A model generated the notes under the pieces. That model searched no databases, was not told the DNA's origin, and saw nothing but the letters and a program-made list of their open reading frames with translations. Of a stretch of DNA of 39,144 bases, positions 5,951 through 35,250 are shown one piece after another. Position 1 is the stretch's first letter; every line of letters starts with the position of its first letter. The translations under genes were made by a program, and so were the position numbers. Source of the stretch: Collinsella aerofaciens. GTDB taxonomy: Bacteria > Actinomycetota > Coriobacteriia > Coriobacteriales > Coriobacteriaceae. The stretch is taken from positions 1 to 39,144 of the forward strand of contig NZ_JADNDZ010000070.1 in NCBI RefSeq assembly GCF_015552075.1, in the 5' to 3' direction.

Positions 5951-6535
5951 ATGATTGATAGAAAGCAGTTTTTAGGTCTGATGGCAGGGGCTCCTATTTT
6001 GATGCGAGCTGGGATGGCAGAAGCCGTGGAGTTGCCGGACGCTCGGAAGCGATTGACGCTCGTGGTCGACACGGTGGTCAGAGATGAAAATGGCAATGAA
6101 AAAACGCGAACAAGAAGCAGAGAGACTATTTTCACGCCAGAGAGCGAAATTGTGTCTGCGGACGCTATGGCCGGTGATGTCATAACAATCCAGAGGGAAT
6201 CAGATGAAACGTTGCCGCTGCTTGCCAAGATTGAGCTCACGGTCGCTTATTTTAACGATAAAACAGAAATTGAGATTCGTTCCGGAAAGTACTCGATAGT
6301 CCAAACCGATCCGCTTGTGATGTATGCAAACGCTTGGTACGCGCTCATGCAGAAGGATAAATTCGTGATGAATAACTTCACGGAAAGCGAAGCATCATAT
6401 GAAACGGGGTGGGGGCCAACGCCATACGACGCGGAGAAAGATAAGTGGACGTGCGGATCAGGCATGGGTGCGACGATTACGGACTTTATTAACGATTCAA
6501 CATATAGTTTTGCTATCGACTGTTATATCGAATAG
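5951..6535 (+). CDS. Secreted hypothetical protein with Tat-like leader
   Basis: A 194-residue protein that I do not recognise. The N-terminus (DRKQFLGLMAG, then a hydrophobic stretch ending MAEA) resembles a twin-arginine leader with RK in place of RR; it may equally be a Sec signal. The mature part is predominantly strand-like and polar, with one helical-looking patch (MYANAWYALMQKDKF) and three aromatic, glycine-rich segments toward the end. Only two cysteines occur in the mature part, both near the C-terminus (WTCGSG, FAIDCY). AAGGGGAATGAAGA precedes the ATG. It follows the small anchored protein by 21 bases, so it is probably the third gene of that operon and shares its low GC. The second peptidase cassette has no equivalent of this gene. 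Confidence 0.6.
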   Translation: MIDRKQFLGLMAGAPILMRAGMAEAVELPDARKRLTLVVDTVVRDENGNEKTRTRSRETIFTPESEIVSADAMAGDVITIQRESDETLPLLAKIELTVAYFNDKTEIEIRSGKYSIVQTDPLVMYANAWYALMQKDKFVMNNFTESEASYETGWGPTPYDAEKDKWTCGSGMGATITDFINDSTYSFAIDCYIE

Positions 6536-6707: not shown

Positions 6708-8171
6708 ATGAGCGAGAACGATTCTCAGCGTCCCCAGGACGCGGGCAACGCCGGCGAGACCCAGCAGCAGCCGCGCGTGCAGGTGGAGTCGACGCCTGCC
6801 GACGGCAACAACATTCCCTACGTGCAAGCCTACGACACACAGACCGGCAAGCCGCTGGGCGGCCAACAGGTCGTGAACAAGCACACGGTGGTCAAGACCA
6901 AGACCAAAAAGCTGCCGATCTTTATTACGGCGCTTGCCGGCTGTGCCTGCGGCGCCCTGCTGGTCATTGCGCTCATTATGAGCGGCACGCTCGATATCGG
7001 CGGCGGCAGGAACGCCGTGACGGCGGGTGCTTCGGGTTCATCGACGCAAAAGATCACCATCGACTCCGAGGACACCACGCTGGCCGAGGCCGTCTCTGCC
7101 AAGGCCCTGCCCTCTGTCGTTTCCATTACCGCCACTTCGAGCGGCAGCCAAAATGGCTCGCTTTCGCAGTCTGCCGACGAGCCGGATAGTTCGGGCAGTG
7201 TCGGTTCGGGCGTGGTACTCGATACCGAGGGCCACATCCTCACCAACAACCACGTGGTCGATGGCTATGACCAGTACGTGGTTACCATGGACGACGGCAC
7301 CACCTACGAGGCCGAGTTCGTGGGCAACGACGCCTCGAGCGACCTGGCCGTCATCAAGCTCAAGGATGCCGACGCTTCCAAACTCACCCCGATCGAGATC
7401 GGCGACTCCTCCAAGCTCAACGTGGGCGAGTGGGTCATGGCGATCGGCTCGCCGTTCGGCAACGAGCAGTCTGTCTCCACGGGCATTGTGTCGGCGCTGT
7501 ATCGCTCCACGGCCATGAGCTCTACCAACGGTAACACCATCTATGCCAACATGATCCAGACCGATGCCGCCATCAACCCGGGCAACTCCGGCGGCGCGCT
7601 CGTCAACGACAATGGTGAGCTGGTGGGCATTAATTCGCTTATCGAGAGCTATTCGGGCTCCAGCTCGGGCGTGGGCTTTGCCATTCCGGTTAACTACGCC
7701 AAGAACATTGCCGACCAGATCATCGACGGTAAGACGCCGGTGCACCCGTACCTGGGCGCCACGCTTTCGAGCGTCAACGCGCTCAACGCCCGCACCAACA
7801 AGCTGAGCACCGATAGCGGCGCGTATGTGGCGAGCGTCGTTGAGGATGGCCCTGCTGCCAAGGCCGGCATCCAGGAGGGCGATGTCATTACCAAGCTGGG
7901 CGACGACGAGATTACGAGTGCCGATGGCCTGATCATCGCCCTGCGCAGCCACGAGGTGGGCGAGAAGGTCGAGATCACGCTCATGCGCGGCAAGGAAGAG
8001 AAGAAGGTCACCGTCGAGCTGGGCTCCGATGAGGAGCTGCAGAACCAGCAGCAGGATGACAGCGCGACCGACACCGGCAACGGCGGTATTACCGACGAGC
8101 AGCTGCGCCAGTATCTGGAGGAGCTGTTGGGCCAGCAGGGCCAGGGTCAGGGCTACGGCCAGGGTTACTAA
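6708..8171 (+). CDS. HtrA/DegP-type membrane-anchored serine protease with PDZ domain
   Basis: A 487-residue protein quality-control protease of the cell surface. Residues 1 to about 65 are a polar, glutamine-rich cytoplasmic segment. A single membrane anchor follows (LPIFITALAGCACGALLVIA). The trypsin-like domain holds His in TNNHVVDGY (about residue 182), Asp in SSDLAVIKL (about 211) and Ser in NPGNSGGALV (about 292). A PDZ domain follows (GAYVASVVEDGPAAKAGIQ, about 365-445). The C-terminus is a low-complexity Q/G tail with repeated GQG and GYGQGY. The ATG at 6708 follows GAAAGGA at suitable distance; the frame is open further upstream but without a site. This layout is the usual one of actinobacterial and firmicute HtrA. 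It ends 28 bases before a strong terminator and is probably monocistronic. Confidence 0.93.
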   Translation: MSENDSQRPQDAGNAGETQQQPRVQVESTPADGNNIPYVQAYDTQTGKPLGGQQVVNKHTVVKTKTKKLPIFITALAGCACGALLVIALIMSGTLDIGGGRNAVTAGASGSSTQKITIDSEDTTLAEAVSAKALPSVVSITATSSGSQNGSLSQSADEPDSSGSVGSGVVLDTEGHILTNNHVVDGYDQYVVTMDDGTTYEAEFVGNDASSDLAVIKLKDADASKLTPIEIGDSSKLNVGEWVMAIGSPFGNEQSVSTGIVSALYRSTAMSSTNGNTIYANMIQTDAAINPGNSGGALVNDNGELVGINSLIESYSGSSSGVGFAIPVNYAKNIADQIIDGKTPVHPYLGATLSSVNALNARTNKLSTDSGAYVASVVEDGPAAKAGIQEGDVITKLGDDEITSADGLIIALRSHEVGEKVEITLMRGKEEKKVTVELGSDEELQNQQQDDSATDTGNGGITDEQLRQYLEELLGQQGQGQGYGQGY

Positions 8172-25344: not shown

Positions 25345-25853
25345 CGCTGGGGCAAACCACCACGAAGGGGACACCTTTGTGGCGGTTTGTTCTAAGACTG
25401 GCGAGCGGGGCGCTATTTATGCCGAGGCAGTTTCCCGCGAACTTAAATGTTGATGTATAAACATCATGATATATGTCGGTCGTTACTAATAGGCAATCTA
25501 GCTGGCAGGTTGTCAGAGCAGGCAAACGCTCTACCGTTTACAGCTACAAATCGACCGCTCGCAGAATATGCTACTAAAAATAAAATGTTGTACAAATAAC
25601 AACAAAGTATGAATTACCTAAAGTAGACAACAAATCTACCTGCTGTTTTTAAATAATAGAATTCAATAAAACAATGCATACTTTGAGCAATTGTCAAGAA
25701 TAAAGATTTTTCGACGCTAAAATGGAAGAAAAAGACGCCCCACATGTTTAAACAATGGCTAAACTTACCAATGTAAGGCACGTATAAATATTGACTGCGT
25801 GCCGGTTAGATAGCGAAAGAGCAGGATCGCGGTCTCTTGGGGAGGAGGCATCG
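25345..25853. other. AT-rich leader of the pilus locus
   Basis: 509 bases without a credible gene. After a family B repeat, the composition turns strongly A/T-rich. Several short dyads are visible: TGATGT/ACATCA (25451-25466), CAAAGTATG (25603-25611) with its inverse CATACTTTG (25677-25685), GTAGA/TCTAC near 25624-25640, CTTAC/GTAAG (25764-25777) and GGCACG/CGTGCC (25777-25803) around TATAAAT. This is probably a long regulatory leader for the adhesin gene; no single promoter is decisive. Confidence 0.5.
25354..25391. repeat. Palindromic repeat family B, copy 3
   Basis: AAACCACCACGAAGG pairs with CCTTTGTGGCGGTTT (two G-T mismatches) around GGACA. It begins nine bases after the HAD phosphatase stop codon and may serve as its terminator. 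Confidence 0.75.
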
Positions 25854-28800
25854 ATGACAGCAAATTCAAATAAATCTAAGCAAGGTAATAAAGCGGCGCA
25901 TCGTGTGATAGCGGGTGTTTTGTGCGGAGCTTCTGTCTTGAGCTTGGTACTGTCGCTCGTCATGCCCCCGATCTCCCAGGCCATTGCTAATGATGCCCAG
26001 GCAGCCTCTACCGAGAAAACTGTAATGGGGGGGGTTCCTCAAGTGAGTCTACTGATGTAGACAACACTGGCGGGGATGTCGAAAACCAGAATAGTGACGA
26101 GGTCGAGGGCGGCGAGACTGGCGACGATGCTTCCGAGGCAGATCCGTTGTCTGATGACGCGGAAGCCGAGGGTGCTGCGCAACCTGCGGATGATGGAGAG
26201 CCCGTCTATAAGGTCGCTACTATTGCAAATGAAGGTGAGGCTCACGGACTTCAACAAGATACGGACGGTTACACGCTGCTGGAGAGTGACGATGATTGGA
26301 CTACCTATCTTGCCATGGAGAAGAAGCCCGAAAAGCTGCGTCTTGCGGCTGATATTAGTTCGAGTACATCAATCACCATCAGCCAAAACACCACGATCGA
26401 CCTTGCGGGGCACAAGCTTAATTACCGCACCGGCAGCAACGACACGTTCATTACGGTTAAGAGTGGCGCACTTACCATTGAGGACTCTGCAACACCAATC
26501 GATACGACTTCTCTTGTTGATGGTGATCATCCCGGCCAGCCCGCAATCATGGCATGGGATGCCAGCAACAAAGCTACTCTTACCTACTATGTGACATCAA
26601 GTGTGCCTAATGAGGACCGCCTTGGCACCACTGAAACCACAACTAAGCATGTCGTCAGCGGCTTCGGTGCAATTATCGGTGCGTCCGAAAGCGGATCGGT
26701 TCAACAGGTCATTTCCGTTCAGGATGGCGGTACGCTTAACCTCACCGGCGGTATGATCACAACGCCGAATAACTTGGCTAACAATGGCCATATTATTTTT
26801 GCCGAAGGCAAGAATAACGATACCCAAGTGAATATCAGCGGCGGCTATATCACTGGCGCGAATCTTAATCAGCAGCGCGGAGGCTGGGGCGGCGGCCTGT
26901 GCGTAGTAGGCGCGAAAGTCACAGTCAACATGACCAACGGCGTGATTGCCGCGAACAAGGCCGCTTCTGGTGGCGGCATTTATGCTGAGAATGCCACGCT
27001 GAATCTCTCCGGTGGTGTCATCTCGGGCAACGCTACGTATGCAAACACTATCAACAATGGAGATAACACCAATGATGGCGGTTACGGCGGCGGTGTTTAC
27101 ACCAAGGGCGCAAACGTTACCATCAGTGGATCTGCCACTATAACTAACAACCGAGCTAACGCTCGCGTTGCTGACAGTAACGTTTATAACAACGGCCTGC
27201 TCGGCGGCGGCGGCATTGCGTCTACCACCAATGGAACGCTAACTATGACGGGCGGCTCCGTTACGGCCAATTACTCCCATGAGGCTGGCGGCGGAATCTA
27301 CGCTGGCTTTTGGAACCAGAAGATTACGTTCAAAATGACGGGCGGTACAATCGCGGGCAACGTGGCGGAGAACGCCGAAGGCGGCGGTCTGCGTATCAGC
27401 ACTGATACGCACGCGACAATTGACGCTGACGCTGACGGCAAGATATATATCACCAACAACAAGACCATGACGGGCTCTAACTCTGGCGAAGGTCGCAAAG
27501 GCGACTGGGGCGGCGGCGGTATCTTCATTCAGAAGAACGGTAGACTCACCATTCTCAAATCGCTCATCACTGACAATAAGGCCGGTGGCTGGAGCGGCGG
27601 AATTGGCGCATGTCCTACGGGCGAGACGATCGTTTCACACTCCAATGGTGCTGCTATCTATGGCAATACTGATAACGTTGACCAAGATGGCGCTACATTG
27701 GATACACCCCATTATTCCGCTGGTGGCGATGGCAAAAAGCAAGACCAGGATCCTGATTACATCACGCCTGACTTCAAAAGCGCCGGCCATAAGGATTTCT
27801 TCCTGGTACGTAATAAAGATGGCGCGGATAAGACGATCGCTGTCGTTCTTGGCAAGATGCTCGGCGGCGGATCGGCTGGTTGGCAGGGCACTTGCGATGG
27901 AAATCCGATTACCATCGACCCAAATGGCGGTGCCGAGGCCAAGTACATGTTCGGTCTTGAGGCCCATCCGACTGATGAGGCCATGGGAAAGGCGAAGACA
28001 GCGGCTACGACCATCATCAGTGGTAACTACTCCTACACCCACGGTGGCGGCATTATGACCAACGGCGATCTTGTCGTTGGCGACGCCGCTGCCTTGGACG
28101 TGTACCCTGCAATTAAAGTCAAGGCCAACAAGTTCCTTATAAAGGATGGCGCTAAACAAGATCTCAAGAATCATTCCTATCAGTTTGAGCTCCTGGGCGC
28201 ACCTGCCAATTCATCCAATGAACCATACTGGAATGAGGACGGCACACTCAACGCAAACGGATGCGAGGCGACGTCTGCGGTTACCGTTAATGAAGACGGT
28301 GAGATTGTCATTGATACTGCCGCGAACTATCAGTCGGGTAATTACGACCTTTACCTGGTTGAGGTCCCCATCAATGAGGAGGGCACCACATTCGATAAGA
28401 CCATCTATAAAATTCATGTGAGCGTCAGCGCTAATCCGGTTACAACTAGCCTTTTGGGGATCAACATTAATCGCTATGTGGTTGATGCGAACACATCCAA
28501 AGTATCCGTCAAAAAGAAAAACGGTACCGAATTCACTGATTATGATGGCTTCTATAGCTGGAGCACGGATACGGCTGACAGTGCCGTCTCGACCGTAAAA
28601 ATCGGCAACGGCTCCAATCCTGCATTTATGAACGAACTTGCTCCCTACAAGACCTCAGGCACCTGGACGCCTCAGGTGACCAAGAAGGTCGATGGCGGCG
28701 AGATGAAGAAGTTCAAGTTCAAGTTGTATGCTGAGAATACCGACAACACGGAGAAAACTTTTCAGCCCATATATACATATACTTCTGGGTCAGAAAACCC

Positions 28801-29221
28801 TCAGACAGTAAAGTTCAATCCGGTACAAATCGGCCCACTAGGCGTTGATGAGCTCGATAGCAATCAGCAGGCGAAGTTCACCTACTACATCCGTGAATGC
28901 CCCGCCGACGGGAACGAAGGCACTGAGCACGAAGGCTACAAGAACGACACAAAGACTTTCAAGGTCGTGGTGACGGCAAAGGATGACGGCAAAGGACATC
29001 TGACCTGCACGCCGGCCTATTACGAGGTCGACGCCAACGGCGCGGAAACCAAGACCGACACCCCCACCTTCACCAACACCTACTCCACCTCATTGCCCCT
29101 TTCTGGTATGTCGGGCGTCACTCTGACGTACCTTGCCGGCGCGGCGGTGCTTTGCGCTGCTGCGGCCTGGATGCACATTCGTCGCAAGGCGAATGCGAAG
29201 GGGGGTGAGCGTCGTGAATAA
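25854..29221 (+). CDS. Large LPXTG-type beta-helix pilus adhesin, frame broken at a G8 tract
   Basis: A strong ribosome site (GGGGAGGAGG) precedes the ATG at 25854, which opens a signal peptide (VIAGVLCGASVLSLVLSLV ... AQAAS). At a run of eight G (26027-26034) the frame shifts; reading on gives a stop at 26060. The rest of the protein is in the next frame, open without stops from the G run to 29221 (a TTG at 26147 could start it, but no ribosome site or signal would remain). With nine G the product would be about 1122 residues: signal; acidic linker (SDEVEGGETGDDASEADPLS); a right-handed beta-helix of many GGGIYAENATLNLSGG-like turns; two Spy0128-like isopeptide pilin domains (the last ending TPTFTNTYSTS); sorting signal LPLSG, membrane segment and RRK tail. 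Probably the pilus tip adhesin. Confidence 0.8.
26027..26034 (+). repeat. Homopolymeric G8 tract at the adhesin frame switch
   Basis: Eight consecutive G immediately after the signal peptide. Adding one G or removing two joins signal peptide and body. The run G-GGG-GGG in the upstream frame is also a possible -1 ribosomal slippage site. Confidence 0.85.
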
Positions 29222-30878
29222 GAATGTTAGCTCCTTCCCGATCTTGTTTGCGCTGCTTGCCTTCTTGATCGGTACCTGCGCGGTTGTGTTCCCCGCTTCC
29301 GCGCAGGCCGCGCCGACCTCGAAAGGTTCCATCACGGTGAGCGGCGCCGTGGCGAGCAGCTACGATGCCTACCAGATCTTTAGCGCCGACGTCGTCGACG
29401 GTGACAGCGACGCTAAGATCGCCACCGACCTCGCTTGGGCAAACGACGCCGCGCGCGACGCTGTCCTGCCTGTGCTGCACAGCGCCGGCATGCCCAAGTC
29501 CCAGACCACCGCGCAGAAAGCTGCCGAGTGGCTCAACGACGATTCTCACCTTACGAGCGCGCTGAGCGCACAGCTCGCTCGTTCCCTCCAGAGCTCCGAC
29601 GCCGTGTCCGTGGCCCTTAACGCGGGCGCGGCGGCCGAGCTGCCCTGCGGCTACTGGCTCATCGTCGCCGACGACGATGCCATCGCCCAGAACGAGGTCG
29701 GCACCGCGCCGATCATGGTGCTGGTCGGCGGCAGCGCCGTCACCGTCAAGCCCAAGGCCGCGACGTCCAAGGTCGCCAAGCACGTGCTGGAGGACGGCAC
29801 CGCCGCCTGGGGCAAGGCCGCCGACGCCACGGTCGCCGACGACCTGTACTGGCGCCTCTCGGCCACGGTCCCGGCGGGCCTCACCGCCTACGACACCTAC
29901 ACGGTGCAGTTCGTCGACACCATGAGCGCGGGGCTCGACCCCTCCAAGGTCGCCGCGAGCATGCACGTGTACGTGGCGGCGGGGGCCGAGGGAGGCTTCG
30001 ACGCCGTCTCGACCGGCAAGGACGGCCGTGCCGGCACCGAGCCCGCCAAGGGCTGGACCGACATCACGGCCCAGTGCAGGGTCTCGGTCGAGGGGAACTC
30101 CTTCACCGTGCGCACCGGCGACCTCATCGCCGCGCTCGGCGGGGCCGACGCCTTCACCGCGGGCGCCCGCGTGGTCGCCGTGTACAACGCGCCGCTCAAC
30201 AGCGCATGCAACCACGGCATCGCGAAGGGCAACCCCAACGAGGTTTACCTGCGCTACCCGCGCTCTCCCTTTGCCGACCAGTCCGGCGACGCCGGCTTCA
30301 CCCGCACGCCGAGCGATGACGCGACGGCCTACACCTGGGATCTCGCGCTCACCAAGCGCGGCAGCGACGGCGACAAGCCGCTGCCCGGGGCGGTCCTGAG
30401 CATCACCGACGACCGCGGTCGCACGCTGGCGGCCGATGGCGCGTGGGATGCGGAGGGCAAGGCCACCGTCACCACGGGCGAGGACGGCCGCGTGACCGTC
30501 TCGGGCGTGGACTCGGGCAAGCTGGAGGTCCGTGAGCTCAAGGCACCCAAGGGCTACACCGCCTTTGAGGGCACGCGCTCCGTGACGGTCAACGCCGAGG
30601 GCCTGGACGTTAAACAGGTGGCCGCCGCCAAGCCCAAGCTCACCATCACCGCCGAGTCGCCCCTGCGCGCCGACAGCGCGGACGGGTCGACGGGCAGCCT
30701 GGAGGCGTCGCTCATCAACACGCCCACCGGCACGCCCCCTAGCACTATCACCGGAGGCTTTATGCCCTCGACAGGCGATATGGCAATGTACGCCGCGGCC
30801 GCCGCAGCGGTCGCCGGAGCCGCACTCCTCGTGGTCGCGCTCCTGATCAAGCGGGGAGGCGGCAACCATGCAGAGTAG
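29214..30878 (+). CDS. LPXTG-family pilin subunit, very high GC
   Basis: A 554-residue sortase substrate. It has a signal peptide (NVSSFPILFALLAFLIGT ... AQAA). The first domain (YDAYQIFSADVVDGD ... WANDAARDAVL) is clearly homologous to that of the following pilin. A middle pilin domain contains YTVQFVDTMSAGLDP. A Cna-B-like domain carries an E-box-like segment (LEVRELKAPKGYTAFEG). The sorting signal is MPSTG, with Met for the usual Leu, then a hydrophobic Ala-rich helix and KRGGG tail. The GTG at 29214 overlaps the adhesin stop by eight bases and follows AAGGGGGGTGAG. Base composition is strikingly richer in G/C than in both flanking pilus genes. It is probably a minor pilin or base subunit. 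Confidence 0.88.
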   Translation: MNKNVSSFPILFALLAFLIGTCAVVFPASAQAAPTSKGSITVSGAVASSYDAYQIFSADVVDGDSDAKIATDLAWANDAARDAVLPVLHSAGMPKSQTTAQKAAEWLNDDSHLTSALSAQLARSLQSSDAVSVALNAGAAAELPCGYWLIVADDDAIAQNEVGTAPIMVLVGGSAVTVKPKAATSKVAKHVLEDGTAAWGKAADATVADDLYWRLSATVPAGLTAYDTYTVQFVDTMSAGLDPSKVAASMHVYVAAGAEGGFDAVSTGKDGRAGTEPAKGWTDITAQCRVSVEGNSFTVRTGDLIAALGGADAFTAGARVVAVYNAPLNSACNHGIAKGNPNEVYLRYPRSPFADQSGDAGFTRTPSDDATAYTWDLALTKRGSDGDKPLPGAVLSITDDRGRTLAADGAWDAEGKATVTTGEDGRVTVSGVDSGKLEVRELKAPKGYTAFEGTRSVTVNAEGLDVKQVAAAKPKLTITAESPLRADSADGSTGSLEASLINTPTGTPPSTITGGFMPSTGDMAMYAAAAAAVAGAALLVVALLIKRGGGNHAE

Positions 30879-30986
30879 CCAATGGCCCCACAGAGAGCGG
30901 GGCGAGACATAACCAAGCAAATGCTTAGACACAGACAGATGGTTTTAGATCAAATGGACTTCAAGCAGAAAGCAGAGGAAAAGAAG

Positions 30987-32708
30987 ATGAGTATGAGCAA
31001 GAACATCGCCCGCCTGGCAGTGACGGCAGGCCTCACCGCAGCGCTGAGCTTCGGCGGCGTCATGGCCCCGGTCACGATGGCGTTTGCTGATGATGTGGCT
31101 ACTACGACCAATAGCATCAAGATCAACAAGAACAATGAGAATGGCGATGTGACGTACAAGGCCTACCAGATTTTCAAGGCCGATGTTGTGGATGGAACCG
31201 ACGGGTCGAGCAAGGTCGTTTCGAACATCGATTGGGCGAGCCCTAAGGCGAAGGATGCGGTTCTGAACTATCTTTCAAAGGTACCCAACTCTGGTATCAC
31301 CCTTAGCTCCTCAGCACAAGCTGCTGCTAAGTATCTGACCGATCATGCAGATGGCACCGGCGAGACGACCCCCATTGAAACCGACAATCTGTTCAACGGG
31401 TTGGCAAAGGAGGTCGTGAAGAGCGTAGGCCAGACGGGTTCTTCCTTTACCACCGACGATGTCTTTAAGCCCCAGGACGGGAACGGAAATGCCCTGCAAG
31501 GCTATTATCTCTTTGTGACTGACGAGAGCACCTTGAGCACCGATCAGGAAGTGAAGAAGAATACTGGTACTTCGCCGATCTTCGCTGTTGTCGGCGACGC
31601 TCTCGTGACCGTTACCGAGAAGACCAGCATTCCCACAGTTGTGAAGAAAGTCAAAAACGACGACGGCAGCAATTGGGCCGACAAGGCCGACTCGCAGATG
31701 GGCCAGAAAGTTGAATATAAGCTGACTGGCACCGTTGCCAGCAATATCGCAACGTTCGATACTTACCATTATGAGTTCAGCGATAAGCTTTCTGACGGTC
31801 TGACGGCAGATGCTAGCAGCGTCATCGTTAAAATCGGTGATACGATCCTTTCACCCAACACGACTCCTGGCGCCAAGACCGGTTACGATGTTTCGATTGA
31901 TGCAACTAACACGTTGACTGTAAAGTTTGCCGACCTCAAGACCGCTGCGGAACAGGCTAACGCGGCGCTCGACGGTAGCTCCAATGTCGTTGTCACTTAC
32001 ACCGCTATGCTTGATCCCACGAAGGCTACGAACGTTACTGTCGGCGGCACAGGTAACGACAACGCCGTAAAACTCATTTATTCCAACAATCCCATGGGCG
32101 AAGGAACGGGTGAGTCTGTGCCCGATACCGTCCGCGACTACACCTACGCGCTTAAGCTTATCAAGCAGGATGCTGATTCTGATACTACTAAGATTGACAA
32201 TGTAGAGTTCACCATCCAAGCAACCGATCCTGACGATGTTGGCTCCAAGGATATGTATGTCGGCAGCGAAGGCACTCTTGTCAATGAGGCCTATAAGTTC
32301 AAAACGGCGAATGGCGGCAAGATTAATGTCAAGGGTCTCGATGCTGGTACCTACACGGTGCACGAGGTCGAGGGCAGTAACCCTGGCTACAATACGCTGG
32401 ACGACTTTACCTTCACTATCAAGCCTGAGGGGCTTAATAAAGACGAGGGTGTGGCGCTCGACGAAAAAACAGCTGTAAATACGCTGAAGGTTACTGTGCA
32501 GAAACCTGACTCCGCTACCATGGTTACCCCGTCAGTCGACGGCGGCACCGTCACCCTTACCGTCAAGAACAAGAAGGGCTCCAACCTCCCGCTCACCGGT
32601 CTCAACGGCGTGACCTTCACCTGGATCGCTGGTGGCGCGGTGCTGTGCATCGGCGTGGCGCACCTCATCCGCAGCCGTAAGCAGGCTGAGGAGTCCGAGC
32701 AGGAGTAA
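30987..32708 (+). CDS. Probable major (backbone) pilin, LPLTG sorting signal
   Basis: 573 residues, with signal peptide (ARLAVTAGLTAALSFGGVMA ... AFADD). The first domain contains YKAYQIFKADVVDGTDG, shared with the preceding pilin. A lysine-rich junction (IPTVVKKVKNDDG) leads to the second domain and could hold the linking lysine. YTYALKLIKQDADSD starts a Cna-B-like third domain, with the E-box in YTVHEVEGSNPGYNTL. The C-terminus has LPLTG, a membrane helix and RSRKQ tail. This layout is that of backbone pilins of sortase-assembled pili (SpaA/FimA-like). The ATG at 30987 follows AGAGG; a second ATG lies six bases on. It is separated from the previous gene by 108 bases and followed by a terminator, so it may be expressed at a higher level of its own. 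Confidence 0.9.
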   Translation: MSMSKNIARLAVTAGLTAALSFGGVMAPVTMAFADDVATTTNSIKINKNNENGDVTYKAYQIFKADVVDGTDGSSKVVSNIDWASPKAKDAVLNYLSKVPNSGITLSSSAQAAAKYLTDHADGTGETTPIETDNLFNGLAKEVVKSVGQTGSSFTTDDVFKPQDGNGNALQGYYLFVTDESTLSTDQEVKKNTGTSPIFAVVGDALVTVTEKTSIPTVVKKVKNDDGSNWADKADSQMGQKVEYKLTGTVASNIATFDTYHYEFSDKLSDGLTADASSVIVKIGDTILSPNTTPGAKTGYDVSIDATNTLTVKFADLKTAAEQANAALDGSSNVVVTYTAMLDPTKATNVTVGGTGNDNAVKLIYSNNPMGEGTGESVPDTVRDYTYALKLIKQDADSDTTKIDNVEFTIQATDPDDVGSKDMYVGSEGTLVNEAYKFKTANGGKINVKGLDAGTYTVHEVEGSNPGYNTLDDFTFTIKPEGLNKDEGVALDEKTAVNTLKVTVQKPDSATMVTPSVDGGTVTLTVKNKKGSNLPLTGLNGVTFTWIAGGAVLCIGVAHLIRSRKQAEESEQE

Positions 32709-32808: not shown

Positions 32809-32848
32809 CGGGGCAGACTCCGCACTGGAGTTTGCCCCGTTCTTTTTG
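32809..32848 (+). terminator. Terminator of the pilin genes
   Basis: CGGGGCAGACTCC pairs with GGAGTTTGCCCCG (one G-T pair) around a five-base loop, followed by TTCTTTTT. Confidence 0.88.
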
Positions 32849-33220: not shown

Positions 33221-34189
33221 ATGGAAATGAACGAAGCGCTAATCTACTTACAAGAAGCACTAGGCCTCTCCGCCAAGGCCAAAGTTTGGCCTGGATCCGC
33301 ACGCTTGCCGCTGCATCTGCGTGCGATTGAGGTCCGCGTTGTTGACGCAAACGGTTTTTCGTTTTTGCTTGCAAGTTTGCCTACTGGCGTCGGGCTTCCC
33401 GAGGCTAAGAGGGTCTATAGTCAGCTAGCCTTGCGTGCGGAGACTCCTGTTGTCGTTTCGTTTCCTGATGCCGATGCACGTCAGCGCAAAGCATTGGTCG
33501 CACAAGGGATTCCCTTTGTCTGTCCCGGTAGACAGGCTTTTCTTCCATTTATGGGCACAGCTTGCACGGAGAGGGGCGGTGCCCGGTTTCGCAATCACGC
33601 GACCAAGATGTCGCCCAACGCGCAGGCTGCCGCAATCTGGGGAGCAGCCCAGGAGCCATATCGTCCCTATGACCTTTGTCGTGCGCTTGGGATTTCGGCA
33701 AGCCGCGCGAGTGAGGCCATAACCGAGCTTGTTGACAGGGGGCTCGCGAAGCGCGAGCGTCGCGAGCGACGTGTCGTTGTGTTCCCTGTTGCCGTTGATC
33801 TTCTGCTCAGCGAGCACATGGCAGAGCTCTCCTCGCCAGTCTCGAAGGTCTGTTTTGCAAGGAAGACGCCGCGGATCGACTATCTTGCTGACGCCGGGGA
33901 GACGGCGCTCGCTGCGCGTTCCATGCTCGCTACGCCGGGTATGGAACAAAAGGCCGTCTTAAGAAGTGCATGGCGTCAACTGAGCAACCTCGAAGTCGCA
34001 GACGGGGAGTTGCCGGATAACGAAACGGCGTTGATCCAAGTGTGGCGCTATGCGCCCGTGTTTGCCGACTCCTCCCGCGTCGACGACATTTCGCTTGCGC
34101 TATCTTTGGCGGCAATCGACGATGAGCGAATTCAGCTCGAAGTCGATCGCATGTTTGGAAAGGAATATCCATGGCAAGAAGCGCTGTAG
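33221..34189 (+). CDS. AbiEi-like antitoxin/winged-helix protein (orphan)
   Basis: A 322-residue protein. A central winged helix (about residues 130-190) reads YDLCRALGISASRASEAITE, then LVDRGLAKRERRERRVVVFP. The C-terminal part (IQVWRYAPVFADSSRVDDIS, then LALSLAAIDDERIQLEVDRM) resembles the uncharacterised regulators that precede AbiEii-type nucleotidyltransferase toxins. This resemblance is from memory and needs a search. The ATG at 33221 has a weak site; another ATG lies at 33227. A partner gene begins 19 bases before its stop with a good ribosome site (AAAGGA) but ends after 14 codons, so the toxin seems lost. It splits the pilus locus, standing between the pilins and their sortase. Confidence 0.6.
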   Translation: MEMNEALIYLQEALGLSAKAKVWPGSARLPLHLRAIEVRVVDANGFSFLLASLPTGVGLPEAKRVYSQLALRAETPVVVSFPDADARQRKALVAQGIPFVCPGRQAFLPFMGTACTERGGARFRNHATKMSPNAQAAAIWGAAQEPYRPYDLCRALGISASRASEAITELVDRGLAKRERRERRVVVFPVAVDLLLSEHMAELSSPVSKVCFARKTPRIDYLADAGETALAARSMLATPGMEQKAVLRSAWRQLSNLEVADGELPDNETALIQVWRYAPVFADSSRVDDISLALSLAAIDDERIQLEVDRMFGKEYPWQEAL

Positions 34190-34311: not shown

Positions 34312-35250
34312 ATGGTGCAGGGCGCCAAACATATGAAGAGCAATAACGCTGCGGACAACGGCGGCTCAAGCCCTCAGCCCAAACCTCAACCAAAGCCCAA
34401 GCGCCGCCGCAAGCGACTGCCGCGCTGGGCTGATCGGCTCGTCACCATCGTCATCATCCTTATTGGCGTGGGCCTTATGACCTGGCCGTGGATCTTGGAC
34501 CGGCTCGAAGCTTCGGGCGTGTTCAACCAGATCAGCACCGTGTCCAGCACCGTGGACGCGCTGTCGGAAGAGGAGCGCGAGCGCATCCTGCTACAGGCGC
34601 GCTCCTATAACGAGCAACTGGCGGGCGAGGCCACCGAGCTTCCCGCCGACCAGATCGAACCCTACGACCAGCAGCTCATCTTTGACCGCGACCCCATGAT
34701 GAGCTGGGTCGAAATCCCCTCCATCGACGTGAGCATGCCCATTTACCATGGCACGAGCGAGGAAGTCCTCATGGCGGGCGTCGGCCACTTGGAGGGCACG
34801 AGCCTGCCGGTGGGCGGCACCTCGACGCATTGCGTGCTCACCGCGCACTCGGGCATGCGCAACTTGAGCATGTTCGACGACATTCATTCGTTGGAGTCCG
34901 GCGACCTGGTGCTGCTGCACACCATGAACAAGACGCTCGCCTACAAGATGGTGGACTCCGAGGTCGTGTTGCCCGAGGAGATGGAGTCGCTGACCATCGA
35001 GCCCGGCGCCGACAAGGTGACGCTCGTTACCTGCACGCCCTACGGCGTGAACGACCACCGTCTGCTGGTGCATTGCGTGCGCACCAAGTACAACAAGAAG
35101 GACGTAGACAAGCAAAAGTCGCTGGCCGGCCGCCACTGGGGCAAGCGCGAGTTCGCCGTGCTCATCGTGGTCGTGGCCATTGTGCTGCTGCTGCTGGACA
35201 TCGTGATCCACGCGGTCCGCAAGCGCCGCAAGGCCAAGGCCTCGGCATAA
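34312..35250 (+). CDS. Class C (pilus-assembling) sortase
   Basis: A 312-residue membrane enzyme that cuts LPXTG-like signals and links pilins by isopeptide bonds. A lysine/proline-rich cytoplasmic tail (about residues 15-45) precedes the first membrane helix (LVTIVIILIGVGLMTW). The catalytic domain has WVEIPSIDVSMPIYHGT, His179 in LTAHSG, Cys241 in TLVTCTPYG and Arg250 in NDHRLL. A second membrane helix lies near the C-terminus (FAVLIVVVAIVLLLLDIVI), then a basic tail; two anchors and the TPYGvN-HRL pattern define class C. A DPF/W lid is not obvious; EPYDQQL precedes the domain at that place. GAGGAG precedes the ATG at 34312. It presumably serves the three sorting-signal proteins upstream, though it is separated from them by 1.6 kb. 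Confidence 0.93.
   Translation: MVQGAKHMKSNNAADNGGSSPQPKPQPKPKRRRKRLPRWADRLVTIVIILIGVGLMTWPWILDRLEASGVFNQISTVSSTVDALSEEERERILLQARSYNEQLAGEATELPADQIEPYDQQLIFDRDPMMSWVEIPSIDVSMPIYHGTSEEVLMAGVGHLEGTSLPVGGTSTHCVLTAHSGMRNLSMFDDIHSLESGDLVLLHTMNKTLAYKMVDSEVVLPEEMESLTIEPGADKVTLVTCTPYGVNDHRLLVHCVRTKYNKKDVDKQKSLAGRHWGKREFAVLIVVVAIVLLLLDIVIHAVRKRRKAKASA

Follow-up and report, generated by a model that had tools for sequence, protein, structure and literature searches.

The closest described systems are the G-tract pilus operons of bifidobacteria, bbr_0113 and bbr_1889 of Bifidobacterium breve UCC2003 and their equivalents in other bifidobacteria (Penno et al. 2022, PMC9187656). In B. breve UCC2003, transcription falls past the leader stop and variants whose tract is in frame produce pili, and the tract-length mixtures of B. 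breve shift in mice (PMC9187656). The bifidobacterial tracts range from 8 to 13 between strains (Table 1 of that study); those of B. breve are mostly 10-11, and one B. bifidum strain has 8 (PMC9187656). The locus analyzed here lies in a window (the whole stretch of DNA that was analyzed) of 39,144 nt from Collinsella aerofaciens. As in the B. breve operons, the tract is in the gene that opens a sortase-pilus cluster, the signal peptide and the LPXTG body are in two ORFs parted by the G run, the second ORF has neither a start nor an export signal of its own, and the length of the run varies among relatives and sets the frame (G8 twice, G9 eight times, G10 once). Read in this way, the Collinsella locus has every sequence-testable feature of a bifidobacterial G-tract pilus operon, and because of this we group it with those operons. 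It differs from them in belonging to another class, the Coriobacteriia, in its shorter runs (8-10), and in being known here from assembled sequence alone. In addition, the run is absent from some Collinsella relatives, either by loss or from the outset, and the same leader and run precede very dissimilar adhesin bodies from one strain to another.

More distant parallels are found in Campylobacter, Neisseria, and Helicobacter, in which surface proteins are frame-switched by slipped-strand mispairing at intragenic G runs. Poly-G contingency genes of these genera are named in PMC8355987 and PMC3786947. The Collinsella gene resembles them in having an intragenic G run that sets the frame of a surface protein, whereas these bacteria are Gram-negative, the proteins are unrelated, and they carry more tracts per genome. 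With the sortase pili of Streptococcus pyogenes and other bacteria, the Collinsella cluster shares PF12892, PF16569, PF17802, PF04203, and LPxTG-type anchors, and the C-terminal half of its adhesin body resembles S. pyogenes pilins in fold. Unlike these pili, it has a large strand-repeat region that matches no solved structure, and a probable G-run switch.

ORF and Pfam reading shows that the adhesin gene heads a unit that also encodes two further pilins, and that a sortase lies further downstream (Table 1). The adhesin and second-pilin reading frames share 8 bases, the stop of the first overlapping the start of the second, and the possible regulator sits between the pilins and the sortase. 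Sortase-assembled pili are recognized by LPxTG-type pilins with isopeptide or SpaA-like domains and a linked sortase, and all of these are present here. A scan for sigma-70 promoters gave no more matches than were found in shuffled sequence.

Table 1. Features of the adhesin gene and the pilus cluster (positions in the window)
Feature	Position	Strand	Details and basis
Ribosome-binding site GGGGAGGAGG	25838..25848	+	5' of leader ATG; sequence
Leader ORF: signal peptide and adhesin start	25854..26060	+	68 codons, then TAG owing to frame
G8 tract, putative slippage site	26027..26034	+	G9 in eight relatives, G8 in TF06-26, G10 in MCC370
Remaining adhesin, offset frame	26033..29221	+	Acidic linker, strand-rich repeats, FctA/Spy0128, LPLSG; open frame, PF12892, orthologues, model and fold search
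Second pilin	29214..30878	+	SpaA prealbumin-like domain, PF17802 (E 1e-13); MPSTG anchor
Third pilin, likely backbone	30882..32708	+	GramPos_pilinBB (PF16569, E 1e-16) and SpaA domains; LPLTG anchor
Terminator-like hairpin, 14 pairs	32809..32839	+	Closes three-pilin unit; predicted by consensus scan
Possible regulator	33221..34189	+	Weak MarR/TrmB-like match, below curated cut-off; unit membership uncertain
Sortase, presumed pilus polymerase or anchoring enzyme	34312..35250	+	PF04203 (E 7e-26)

A first-pass annotation, made from the sequence, described a well-initiated leader with a signal peptide that runs into eight G and then stops at 26060, and direct reading of the sequence bears this out. 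The leader starts with the ATG at 25854 and has the signal peptide VLCGASVLSLVLSLVMPPISQAIA, GTAAT directly precedes the G8, and the leader stop is the TAG ending at 26060. The strong ribosome-binding site of the leader is kept in relatives as GGGGAGGAG[AG]CATCGATG. The uninterrupted offset frame that had also been described, with its acidic linker, pilin domain, and LPLSG anchor, is likewise seen, uninterrupted from 25994 up to a stop whose last base is 29221. The only in-frame start of the body with a Shine-Dalgarno-like motif (GAGG) is a non-conserved TTG at 26147, and no hydrophobic export signal is found in the first 400 residues of the body ORF or after this TTG. The body ORF is thus without a convincing translation start of its own. 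Leader and body are in different frames at the G8, and the sequenced copy therefore reads as being in the off state, as had been proposed. The predicted single protein of about 1122 residues fits the orthologues with leader and body in one frame, which are 1,104-1,179 aa long.

The body is arranged as the acidic linker, Gly-rich strand repeats, a FctA/Spy0128 domain (Pfam profile match to PF12892, E 4e-12), LPLSG, a hydrophobic helix, and an RRK tail. An AlphaFold model of the body, built from 12 sequences (mean pLDDT 70.8), shows many short strands followed by pilin-like domains. Foldseek searches against solved structures matched the major and minor pilins of S. pyogenes in the C-terminal half of the body only, and found no solved-structure match for the N-terminal strand-repeat half. 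The label of beta-helix given to that half in the first-pass annotation thus agrees with the repeated short strands of the model and is not confirmed by the fold search, and a beta-helix in the adhesin body is a plausible prediction.

We searched 45 Collinsella genomes, mostly draft assemblies with one genome per species, and found the leader in 22 of them. An uninterrupted G run occupies the same codons in 11 of these 22 genomes. In 8 of the 11 the run is G9 and a single frame spans leader and body; in two it is G8 and out of frame (this genome and Collinsella sp. TF06-26, G020), and in one it is G10 and out of frame (C. aerofaciens MCC370, G009). Another 8 of the 22 leader-bearing genomes have non-tract codons at the site, with leader and body in frame wherever the contig permits a reading. 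Two have a broken leader (G002 and G010), and in one the locus runs off its contig. The first-pass annotation had named a mix of 7, 8, and 9 G in related genomes as a sign of slippage, and a mix of 8, 9, and 10 is found at the same codons, with the downstream frames intact in the 11 genomes. The relatives are thus not all fixed in frame without a G run, though 8 do carry non-tract alleles, and because of these 8 the switch is not kept everywhere. Off states occur in 3/11 tract alleles versus 0/7 testable non-tract alleles, a Fisher-type contrast with a small sample. The two G8 alleles are in separate clades and need two separate events on the leader tree. Tract and non-tract alleles do not cluster significantly on this tree, consistent with frequent exchange or change.

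The two genomes with a broken leader show a different arrangement. In G002 and G010 (L065 and L066; from locus base 6001), the leader is cut down to ATGGGGTG..TGA; a GTG start overlaps this stop, and the adhesin body behind the short broken leader has a new signal peptide. The adhesin gene of these strains seems to have acquired a new head at the tract, and its body is perhaps coupled to the broken leader by re-initiation.

The bodies behind the off alleles are all open, with 1,075 codons in this gene, 1,079 in TF06-26, and 1,014 in MCC370. In pairwise comparisons of the bodies, dN/dS is 0.30 between this gene and its nearest relative, 0.57 between TF06-26 and G007, and 0.31 between MCC370 and TF06-26, and because of these values the bodies are not decaying freely. 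The G8 allele of TF06-26 and the G9 allele of G007 are 93% identical over 7.1 kb around the run, and their bodies are 90% identical. A one-way loss, in which a chance frameshift starts the decay of a pseudogene, would fit with the frequent loss of adhesins and with the broken leaders of G002 and G010 before a body with its own signal peptide. It is nevertheless extremely improbable here, for no second lesion is found in any of the three open bodies, and all three off cases arise at the run itself and none elsewhere.

The G-GGG-GGG of the run is a slippery sequence, and polymerase slippage can arise at long G runs, so the gene might always be out of frame and yield a share of full-length protein by programmed ribosomal frameshifting or transcriptional slippage. 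This explanation is very unlikely, as most relatives are in frame at the same run, the G8 and G10 alleles would require opposite shifts, and the predicted fold of the RNA 3' of the run is only a little more stable than that of shuffled sequence (z -1.45). A programmed ribosomal frameshift is expected to combine a fixed offset in homologues with a slippery site and a stimulatory structure, and at this locus both offsets occur and the fold is weak. Some leaky rescue may exist on top of genetic switching.

Pattern searches of the 2.32-Mb genome found nine runs of exactly G7 and 11 runs of at least eight G (five G8, four G9, one G10, and one G12). The decay of run length from G6 to G7 predicts 0.5-0.8 runs of at least eight G, and even a lenient ratio of 0.25 predicts about 3 at most (P <= 3e-4 for the 11 observed). 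Because 11 are observed versus about one to three predicted by run-length decay, the long G runs of this genome form a class of their own. GGG makes up 4.8% of the glycine codons in orthologous adhesins, and no GGG-GGG pair is found elsewhere in the gene in the eight orthologous adhesin genes examined.

Other G runs of this genome also look switchable, and two of them vary in length. A Flp-pilin gene has G10 in this genome and G9 in the near-identical strain G061 (3-kb loci 99.2% identical), and a G12 in this genome (L124, G000:C57), which is not covered by any clear long ORF, corresponds to a G10 in G061 (L117, G061:C1; 3-kb loci 98.7% identical). Given these differences between near-identical strains, a sequencing error at one site accounts poorly for the whole class. 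For the adhesin itself, a sequencing or assembly error would mean that the run was miscounted in this assembly and that the gene is truly in frame. Homopolymers are error-prone, and probable two-colour Illumina poly-G artefacts are found at contig ends of the Collinsella MAGs G006, G030, and G028. However, the site is 26 kb inside its contig, and off lengths occur in two more genomes, in both directions (G8 and G10) and in separate clades; together with the variation of other tracts, this makes a miscount unlikely. Even if it were true of this copy, the locus would stay a tract-bearing gene. The MAGs G006, G030, and G028 each show dozens of runs of at least ten G, many of them close to contig ends; these are probably two-colour Illumina artefacts, and raw G-run counts in such MAGs are therefore untrustworthy.

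We consider it very probable that replication slippage at the G run turns the adhesin on and off, and probably the pilin unit with it. The slippage interpretation offered by the first-pass annotation is supported because G8, G9, and G10 occur at one site, the bodies are open, the two G8 alleles are independent, long G runs are in excess, and other tracts vary. In the proposed mechanism, the G run in the adhesin leader would be a contingency tract whose length occasionally slips by one base during replication. With nine G, leader and body would form one protein, which would be exported and anchored by sortase. With eight or ten G, translation would end a few codons past the run and no exported adhesin would be made. 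At an off length, the untranslated mRNA and the lost coupling to the overlapping next gene would probably lower the whole pilin operon. Reversible slippage within one strain is what we infer from a comparison of lengths between species or strains rather than within a clone (one genome per species). Polarity on the pilin operon, and an effect on adhesion or immunity, are expected by analogy with B. breve. Most assemblies show one state (8/11 tract alleles in frame), and tracts of 8-10 G are rather short for fast slippage.

Searches of the open-access literature turned up no account of phase-variable pili in Collinsella or Coriobacteria, and a G-tract pilus switch in Coriobacteriia is apparently unreported. 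Collinsella is a common human gut genus. If the slippage switch is true, one assembled genome reports one pilus state alone, and gene-presence surveys and automatic annotation, which calls the gene broken, would misjudge pilus-capable strains. A second class of gut Actinomycetota would then also be known to use the bifidobacterial mechanism. The joining of one leader and run to such different bodies adds to the interest, as do unrelated Flp-type pilins with similar runs behind double starts.

These Flp-type pilin genes (L072 and L083-L111) have a weak Flp_Fap match and DUF6273 or DUF285 at the C-terminus, and the family occurs in 13/45 Collinsella genomes. In this genome, L072 (G000:C90:15500-24163) has runs at contig positions 18794-18803 and 21680-21688. 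A G9 or G10 lies about 50 bases 5' of EYV codons, right after ATGCATG, which provides overlapping starts in two frames. In one subfamily, G9 puts the first ATG in frame and G10 the second, while in another (L102, L105, and L106) G9 leaves no start in frame. Collinsella might have a few G-tract contingency genes across its genome, which together span two unrelated pilus classes, the sortase pilus and Flp-type pilins with ATGCATG before the run, in which G9 and G10 would both be on with different N-termini and a third length alone would be off; we put this forward tentatively, as a reading that could well prove wrong.

Two further G9 runs were observed in this genome. One (L071, G000:C89:3500-10900; contig 6987-6995) is at the C-terminal end of an ORF assigned from its sequence to acetyltransferase-like hexapeptide-repeat proteins, where other lengths would alter the last residues. 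The other (L073, G000:C98:22500-29500; contig 26242-26250) is near the C-terminus of an ORF of ~1,000 codons with surface-protein-like repeats. In other Collinsella genomes, ten-G runs occur in or just past the signal-peptide-like N-termini of long ORFs (L126, L130, and L137), which suggests further switchable exported proteins in the genus.
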